From assembly GCF_900103955.1 (NCBI RefSeq), contig NZ_FNIL01000004.1:244000-307999 (forward strand): 64,000 nt of DNA. The letters are read 5' to 3'. Source of the stretch: Alkalicoccus daliensis (lineage in GTDB: Bacteria > Bacillota > Bacilli > Bacillales > Salisediminibacteriaceae). The notes under the pieces were generated by a model. It searched no databases, was not told the origin of the DNA, and saw only the letters and a list, made by a program, of their open reading frames with translations. The translations under genes were made by a program, and so were the position numbers. Of the stretch, positions 26,873 to 27,938 are shown piece after piece. Each line of letters starts with the position of its first letter. Position 1 is the first letter of the stretch.

Positions 26873-27938
26873 TGCCTGCGATCGCGGCTTGAAAGCCTTT
26901 AAAGATCGTATTATCAGGTGACTTTCTTTTGTCTGGAGCGACACACCAGCAGCGATCAGGCTGCACCTTCAGGCGGAAAGCCTGGAGGCAGACCTGTTCC
27001 TTTCAAAGGAAAAGCAGACAGGATTGAGTCAGCTGCTGAGAATAACGCTCCGACGAAAGTCAAAAGACAGAAATGAACATAAAATTTTCCTTGGTCATCT
27101 CAGGGACGGATTCAGGGATACAGACACCTTGCATGTTGGTTCCTCTGCCATCTGTTCAGAAAGCTTGAACAAACAAATAAAAATACAGAAAACCGATAAC
27201 GCAGACTGCGTAATGCAGTCCCGTCGAAGTCGGTCCGTATAATCAAAGTTTTGTTGATTCCAGCTGTGGAACGAATTCCTTCAAGCAGCTGGAGCAACCC
27301 CGGCAGTCTTTACCTTCAATCACAAGTGAATGGTGAGCCCATTAACGGATTCTCAGCAACTAATCGCTTGGCGTATTGAACAGGTATTTTTTCTCAGGGC
27401 TTGCTGTACAAAAATAACTCCTACAACGATCGCTAAAAGTGCTTACAATACAGCAGCACAGTAACGATGTTAATGAACAAGGCATCTCCTGCGCCTTCGA
27501 ATTGAGTTACATATACTCGGGTTAACTCCATTCGGAATCCCAGCAGCAATCCCAGCAAAGATAAGAATTGAAACGCCGTTCCGAAGAACTTTATTTCAGT
27601 GGTTCGATATCTTGTCACTTGTGCTAGCTTCTTGCGACCAGCTTCCCATTCATTCATTATAAAATGAAATCAGGGACAACATCCAGTTATTGTAACCAAA
27701 CAATAATCGATGCTGTAATGTAGGGCATTATTCCTGTCGCAAAGATCGAGAAATTCTCGAGGGCACCTCCGCCTCCAGTATGCTGCAGGCGTTCAATTCC
27801 CCGCCGATTCCGGCACATAAGCGCCAGTATCCGCAGCGGGGAGGTGGGCACCGATTCGAAAGACGATTAACATCGCTAAGGTGTTGAAGAATCAATCTTC
27901 ACTCACCTACTCGAAAGATTGGAGATCGTCTGAAACAT
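26873..27938 (-). pseudogene. secY: secY, heavily decayed (preprotein translocase subunit SecY)
   Basis: The conserved secY slot between rplO and adk holds no intact gene. Blocks that match Bacillus SecY appear in order on the minus strand but in different frames: MFQTISNL (from 27938, overlapping the rplO stop as TAATG), [14 protein letters not shown] (about 27880-27840, preceded by an in-frame TGA), [20 protein letters not shown] then ASII (about 27775-27715) followed by a TAA and LDVVPDF, EAGRKKLAQVTRY (about 27646), YVTQFEGAGDALFINIVTV (about 27515), LLAIVVGVIFVQQALRK (27439), IPVQYAK (one frame shifted at a poly-A run), LKVKTAGV (about 27310) and LLTFVGALFSAADSIL (about 27067). About 200-250 bases are missing compared with a 1.29-kb secY. 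Too damaged to make protein; a working SecY must come from elsewhere. Confidence 0.93.

Follow-up and report, generated by a model that had tools for sequence, protein, structure and literature searches.

Conserved blocks and a shared predicted fold in the broken spc-operon secY of Alkalicoccus suggest a protein gene turned RNA element

SecY of the SecYEG translocon is an essential protein channel. Streptococci have a second, accessory SecY (SecY2/SecA2) beside the housekeeping one, and OLE RNA, known from extremophilic Gram-positive bacteria, is a large, ornate structured RNA with frozen sequence blocks in alkaliphilic and halophilic Bacillota. SgrS/SgrT is a dual-function RNA whose reading frame has been lost in some lineages, and Xist derives from a protein gene. 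The locus described here, in the salt- and alkali-loving bacterium Alkalicoccus, resembles each of these systems in part. Its genome encodes a full-length Pfam SecY like that of the translocon, but from outside the spc operon, upstream of fadN. In contrast to SecY2/SecA2, this second copy is a close paralogue (~72–76% to the spc copies of the family) that has replaced the housekeeping SecY, and the genome under study lacks a second SecA to match it (two full-length SecA occur in only 4 of 35 family genomes). With SgrS/SgrT and Xist the locus would share RNA and protein roles in one transcript and loss of coding in some lineages, but the gene concerned is a 1.3-kb essential membrane-channel gene that belongs to a ribosomal-protein operon and whose protein role has passed to a paralogue. 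With OLE RNA the locus would share large size, an ornate fold and frozen blocks in an alkaliphilic and halophilic host, but the OLE model (RF01071) has no match in the dead secY region, and the genome has its own typical OLE RNA elsewhere (G000:C15:762770-763352, 516.6 bits), the single OLE match found in it. Searches of an open-access library turned up nothing on a dead spc secY, on two secY genes in alkaliphiles or on a structured RNA at this place.

We analyzed a window of 64,000 nucleotides (G000:C10:244000-307999) from the genome under study (G000; 3.78 Mb, 28 contigs), and all feature positions are those of this whole stretch (Table 1). The first-pass annotation had described the secY between rplO and adk as dead, with 200–250 bases missing and with its decayed tail forming the upstream extension of adk, and each of these statements was borne out. 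Searches with tblastn recovered separate SecY pieces, in order, between the two genes, and a SecY profile gave only two matches there, at positions 95–222 (41.2 bits, three TGA and two TAA inside) and 1–27 (23.6 bits, one TAA inside). The three forward frames hold 13, 17 and 17 stops, with a longest open stretch of 78 aa, and by alignment the stretch is ~235 bases short of an intact 1,293-base secY. The reading frame is broken as in an ordinary pseudogene, leaving SecY fragments only. The neighbors rplO, adk and map are all open, as had been stated; the protein start and a GGAGG ahead of the ATG make 26851 the likely true start of adk.

Table 1. Known and predicted features of the spc-operon secY region, in window coordinates.
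Feature	Position	Strand	Remark
map	25452..26201	-	intact
adk	26198..26851	-	intact
adk Shine-Dalgarno region	26859..26871	-	can pair in several relatives with secY codons ~364–367 (here 27062–27072, weak)
Dead spc-operon secY	26872..27940	-	candidate structured RNA region between rplO and adk
Candidate 3' helix	26947..27038	-	arms 27028–27038 and 26947–26957
PA 3' arm (predicted)	27400..27425	-	
H9 hairpin (predicted)	27439..27459	-	GTGCT / AGCAC; mutually exclusive with PB
PB 3' arm (predicted)	27456..27465	-	overlaps competing hairpin H9
PE hairpin (predicted)	27480..27496	-	5 pairs
Core block	27481..27502	-	22 bases identical in four dead lineages
PD stem-loop (predicted)	27498..27534	-	11 pairs and one mismatch; loop length varies among genomes
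Core block	27523..27558	-	36 bases identical in four dead lineages
PC 3' arm (predicted)	27558..27581	-	
PC 5' arm (predicted)	27586..27613	-	17 pairs counted; most variable arm
PB 5' arm (predicted)	27614..27624	-	10 pairs; inside block kept in all four dead lineages
PA 5' arm (predicted)	27719..27743	-	long-range helix, 22 pairs
Conserved block	27847..27877	-	AGCGATGTTAATCGTCTTTCGAATCGGTGCC
P1 hairpin (predicted)	27879..27908	-	AGGTG..GAAGA / TCTTC..CACCT
rplO	27938..28378	-	intact; stop overlaps former secY start (TAATG)

The broken copy is not peculiar to this genome. A broken secY occupies the same place in five further Alkalicoccus genomes (A. saliphilus 6AG, A. luteus H11, two metagenome-assembled genomes and the single-contig genome G003), which makes an assembly fault unlikely. 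Of the eight Alkalicoccus genomes examined, six have an spc secY that no longer codes for the protein, and two have an intact one. The relatives referred to below by handle include A. saliphilus (G001), A. urumqiensis (G002), A. chagannorensis (G004), A. luteus (G006), the metagenome-assembled G005 and G007, Salipaludibacillus (G009, G019 and G023) and Salisediminibacterium (G018).

Because SecY is essential, a full-length secY had been expected elsewhere in the genome, whether relocated, duplicated or foreign, and a profile search found one on contig C18 (373.1 bits, no stops), the only full-length SecY gene detected in G000. It encodes 437 aa from a GTG or 433 aa from an ATG that follows a plausible ribosome-binding site, and its best solved relatives are the SecY chains of 7xha and 8y9y (430 aligned residues). 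The nearest named records to it are from Alkalicoccus species. Between G000 and G001, G003 and G006 the second copies are 92–94% identical in protein, with only 31–37% of 4-fold sites identical, a pattern of purifying selection that shows strong constraint on a full-length SecY over a long time. A hairpin followed by a T run, terminator-like by eye, lies behind the C18 gene, and the genes beyond it are, as we take them from Bacillus gene order and their protein sequences, fadN, fadA, fadE, a yusI-like gene, gcvH, metN and a metI-like gene. The same neighbor, fadN, follows the second copy at 20 of the 23 second-copy loci examined and was not seen in L058, L068 and L071.

A SecY tree of 64 rows identified duplication as the source of the second gene. 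All 27 second copies group together (100/100), and their sister group, at a node supported by 100/99, is the clade of the family's spc copies (89/80); there was no grouping with distant taxa, which rules out a foreign origin. On this tree, secY was duplicated once, in the stem of the family, and most members have kept the second copy. The spc copy could break where it normally stands because SecY is supplied by this older duplicate at another locus. Two full-length secY genes are present in 24 of 35 family genomes and one in 11, compared with one each in 16 other genomes of the order. Nine of the one-secY genomes have the second copy only (G000, G001, G003, G005, G006, G007, G012, G018 and G021) and G010 has the spc copy only, the eleventh being G044, a 76% complete genome that falls outside the spc/second classification. 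On the same tree the second copy of G016 (L062, genus g3) has a long branch of 0.30, as if in that genome the second copy, not the spc copy, were under relaxed constraint.

The spc copy has also gone from genus g6, in all three genomes of which the 142–435 bases remaining between rplO and adk hold no SecY piece reaching E = 0.001, although in two of them the first bases of the gap still resemble, by eye, the start of secY. A tree in which the intact G013 clusters with Alkalicoccus (100/100), leaving g6 outside, marks this as a separate event. In L135 (6323-6713) and L137 (4873-5307), both of g6, the gap contains what looks by eye like a terminator hairpin with a T run, and the operon may be split there. 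Within Alkalicoccus, AU tests on the species tree (5,000 replicates, few for this test by the program's own warning) gave p-AU 0.58 for a single dead-copy clade, so that one and several inactivations are not separable; placing G000 beside the intact species was rejected (p-AU 0.008), and the other four arrangements tested were not. The intact spc SecY proteins of G002 and G004 (L038 and L041) sit on a long shared stem of 0.15, compared with 0.052 for the branch of G013, which fits a weakening of protein constraint before loss. The four family genomes with two full-length SecA genes are G002, G004, G013 and G010, G000 having one full SecA. Within the genus the second SecA thus occurs in exactly the two species with an intact spc secY and in none of the six dead-copy genomes, two of which are only about 80% complete; as G002 and G004 are sisters, the coincidence may reflect a single event.

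The first-pass annotation had called the locus a secY pseudogene. For the coding gene this stands, but the base-level record does not support a mere pseudogene. When dead and intact spc copies were aligned, base-identical blocks alternated with scrambled or deleted stretches, and between species the blocks conserved in the dead copies measured 12 to 51 identical bases. With G001, G003 and G006, the dead region of G000 shares uninterrupted identical runs of 51, 45 and 36 bases, at distances at which 4-fold sites elsewhere (in as many as six genes: rpoB, rpoC, fusA, adk, map and rpoA) are only 48–52% identical; identical runs of 36–51 bases against this background are not what neutral decay leaves. 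Runs of 36, 22 and 12 bases are common to all four dead lineages, and 31 bases (27523–27553) are invariant in 17 of 17 aligned sequences. The only further core-like copy in G000, an 84% match over 37 bases, lies inside the second secY.

In relatives that still encode the protein, synonymous sites within these blocks are frozen as well. Among 11 intact spc copies (two from Alkalicoccus, one from genus g7 and eight from genus g3), 48 of 310 informative codons are invariant, with 19 of 22 in the core and 29 of 288 elsewhere (p = 1.3e-14; the core, codons 184–209, was chosen after the alignment was seen). Independently of that choice, invariant codons form runs of 12 and 8, compared with 6 at the 99.9th percentile of shuffles. 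In seven of these 11 genomes, for which both copies could be compared, the spc copies have 62 invariant codons out of 326 and the second copies 8 out of 268, with a longest run of 1 in the latter. Sites frozen in the intact genes also tend to survive in the dead ones: 4-fold sites invariant across nine intact genomes persist in three or more of the four dead lineages in 24 of 36 cases, compared with 32 of 134 for the remaining 4-fold sites (p = 4.5e-6).

This freezing is restricted in distribution. Neither the spc copies inspected from g2, g5, g8 and G010 (15 genomes) nor that of the outgroup G025 have the frozen core. A covariance model of the core has matches in 284 of 397 genomes of the order, scoring 106–149 bits in ten genomes of three genera and, among the matches listed, at most 67 bits elsewhere. 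The weaker matches that could be placed, again among those listed, lie in secY genes, including those of G011, G014, G022, G024, G025, G028, G035 and G039 and the second copies of G002, G004, G006, G009, G013 and G019. Since the core is frozen in the spc copies of only three genera, the element appears to have arisen after the duplication, in a gene that was still coding. A conserved small protein encoded in the core was considered and ruled out, as the length differences in the loop and in H9 are not multiples of three and would break a reading frame.

Dead copies of the region are also predicted to fold. We compared whole-region folds of five of the six dead copies with 30 dinucleotide shuffles each, and all five folded better than their shuffles (z of -6.8 in G000, -3.9 in G006, -5.5 in G003, -3.5 in G001 and -5.4 in G005), in a test in which coding spc copies reach -4.1. 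Values were -2.7 to -4.1 for six element-bearing intact copies, -2.2 to -3.7 for five other spc copies and 0.0 to -3.3 for six second copies, so that three of the five dead copies exceed every coding copy and those of G001 and G006 fall inside the range of the coding copies. Restricted to the central domain, z was -2.2 to -5.9 in six dead copies, -1.1 to -5.3 in eleven intact element-bearing copies, -1.1 to -4.0 in six other spc copies and +0.4 to -3.0 in seven second copies; the element-bearing G004 has only -1.1 and the element-free G046 has -4.0. In G000 the domain reaches -4.90, with 0 of 100 shuffles as good. The sole Rfam match for window positions 26700–28100, to mir-133, is at chance level (16.9 bits, where the cut-off is 55.5), and no tRNA or tmRNA was found in the dead secY region.

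The predicted nested domain comprises PA, PB, PC, PD and PE and is closed by the long-range helix PA, all pairs of which form in six of seven sequences having both arms, the helix being lost in G006; all pairs of PB form in seven of eight. Over eight sequences, 95.0% of 504 cells are paired, compared with 36–46% when the structure is slid. Double-sided changes affect 5 of 65 pairs (shuffled mean 1.6, with 3 of 500 shuffles as high, and slid versions reaching 3 and 4), and 0 of 500 shuffles matched the covariation score of the domain, a structure that was itself derived from folds of the same sequences. The near-constancy of the core leaves little room for covariation, and its helices, PD and the hairpin within the invariant 31 bases, show none. 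H9 and PB compete for the same bases, and H9 is also kept in Alkalicoccus and G013; this competition would allow a switch.

The element that stands out most clearly by eye lies near the former start codon, where per-sequence folds place a two-step hairpin, P1, at the same position in the four dead lineages, with different letters in the outer arms (AGGTG/CACCT, GGCGG/CCGCC, GCAGG/CCTGC and AGG.GAT/ATC.CCT). Its z was -3.0 in G000, -2.2 in G001, -4.0 in G006 and -1.9 in G003, and -0.3 in the one second copy scored, that of G000. A P1-type hairpin also occurs in most intact spc copies, where codons partly dictate the outer stem. Second copies are without the GGTGA/TCACC outer stem, and several (e.g., G001, G013, G014 and G020) form other hairpins there, so that the mere presence of a hairpin is not distinctive; this comparison leaves out the spc copies of G022, G040 and out24 and the second copies of G011 and G016. 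A GGTGA/TCACC hairpin at the secY start was also seen in spc copies of other Bacillales (e.g., G010, G011, G041, G045, out25 and out97), and the rplO–secY junction may have had some of this structure from earlier on.

Taken together, the blocks conserved in dead copies, the freezing of the same blocks in intact relatives and the shared predicted fold indicate selection for a function other than the SecY protein. They strongly indicate that the spc locus carries a second, non-coding function in the same bases, and the preserved blocks and modeled fold suggest a protein gene turned RNA element. We propose, with a probability of about 0.7, that the second secY makes SecY and that the spc locus has been kept as a non-coding structured RNA. 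Retention of the locus as a functional structured RNA, with expression assumed from its position in the operon, we regard as quite probable in its own right. This last estimate and the one for action in cis (below) were slightly tempered because masking of the adk start (also below) predates the element and because the ranges of fold stability overlap; a further counterpoint is that the three g6 genomes live without the element. Under this proposal the non-coding function would have arisen in a still-coding gene, a stage represented by the intact copies of Alkalicoccus, Salipaludibacillus and one further genus, and it would have outlived the loss of coding, the likeliest form being a large structured RNA within the transcript of the spc operon. 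We give roughly even odds to the fuller history in which, after the duplication, a protein gene that is essential and universally conserved was converted in place, acquiring an overlapping RNA role while coding, dropping the protein later in Alkalicoccus and being refined into a structured RNA of 0.7–1.1 kb in a ribosomal-protein operon, possibly with two competing folds (PB and H9), the duplicates dividing RNA and protein labor between them.

How such an RNA would act is a more tentative matter, and we place the prospect that it does so mainly in cis a little short of even. Lying between rplO and adk and ending at the adk ribosome-binding site, it could be an intercistronic element that sets the translation or processing of adk and the genes downstream. 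In many intact relatives, secY codons ~364–367 could keep the adk Shine-Dalgarno sequence covered by pairing until it is freed by passing ribosomes; as the dead copies are no longer translated as SecY there, the structure would take over the masking. By rank as complements to the adk Shine-Dalgarno region among 1,279 positions (the best of seven neighboring positions, at a site chosen post hoc), masking by these codons is 1–6 in nine of the 11 element-bearing intact copies, 21 in G004 and 143 in G013. It ranks first in the dead copies of G003, G001, G005 and G007, three of which are near-identical, and is weak in those of G000 (139 of 1,043) and G006 (155 of 675). Six core-less family copies (G008, G020, G022, G040, G041 and G043) rank 1–9 and five outgroups 28–228; its presence in core-less copies makes adk masking look like an old trait of the family, older than the element. 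An ancestor in which adk translation was coupled to that of secY, and a present-day role in cis, would agree with this pattern, though unevenly.

Uneven masking leaves some room for a second mode of action, in which processing of the spc transcript releases the region as a large independent RNA working in trans, its place in the operon serving only for ribosomal-level expression. Its size, long-range helices and frozen blocks would suit such a molecule, OLE RNA being comparable in size and style, and in G000 the distance from the core blocks to the adk start downstream, 630–707 bases, is long for a simple leader; the masking helix is moreover weak in G000 and G006. All ten core-model matches above 100 bits among the 397 order genomes, however, are at spc secY loci of three genera, and the region shows no promoter or terminator of its own above shuffles (in 26000–28700, three sigma-70-type promoters and one terminator, against shuffle means of 3.4 and 2.7). 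We consider action in trans rather unlikely.

The structured RNA also has to be weighed against an element acting as DNA, such as a protein-binding or chromosome-organizing site or a phage attachment site. That the core is invariant rather than covarying, and that PD is an inverted repeat, would agree with this, but the loop between the PD arms varies in length among genomes and P1 stays paired although its letters differ. Viral contigs hold no exact copy of the 31-base core, phage and plasmid records none of a 201-base region, and a DNA-level role seems improbable to us. A 15-base pattern that occurs in 80 viral stretches was taken as chance.

Still less credible is a plain pseudogene, left by recent independent losses of secY, with the blocks as residual coding sequence. 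The broken frames and deletions are real, and the species tree accommodates several inactivations as well as one. Leftover coding sequence would nevertheless differ at synonymous sites, as the second copies do (28–47% 4-fold identity in the pairs tested), whereas the identical blocks of 36–51 bases coincide with sites frozen in intact relatives, and the scrambling or deletion of the intervening parts means that the death of the gene is not recent. An assembly error, or SecY still made from the spc locus by massive recoding, can be dismissed: the G000 locus does lie on one contig of a 28-contig draft, but six genomes carry different lesions at this one place, large coding parts are missing and an intact SecY gene exists.

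If the retained-RNA proposal is true, the locus offers a traceable bacterial case of a protein gene becoming an RNA element, with the states before (intact, with both layers), after (dead) and upon loss (genus g6) all present within one family. It also serves as a warning, since a locus of this kind can readily be set aside as a pseudogene or a fault of assembly. Nature has here substituted another SecY for that of the spc operon, and the system could be used to probe how the secY position affects expression of adk, map and rpoA. Outside Alkalicoccus, a GGGAG/CTCCC-like hairpin and a CGATCGT/ACGRTGG-like repeat were seen by eye between secY (or rplO) and adk in L049, L073, L135, L137 and L138; neither motif appears in the aligned Alkalicoccus sequences, and control of adk may have changed in this genus.
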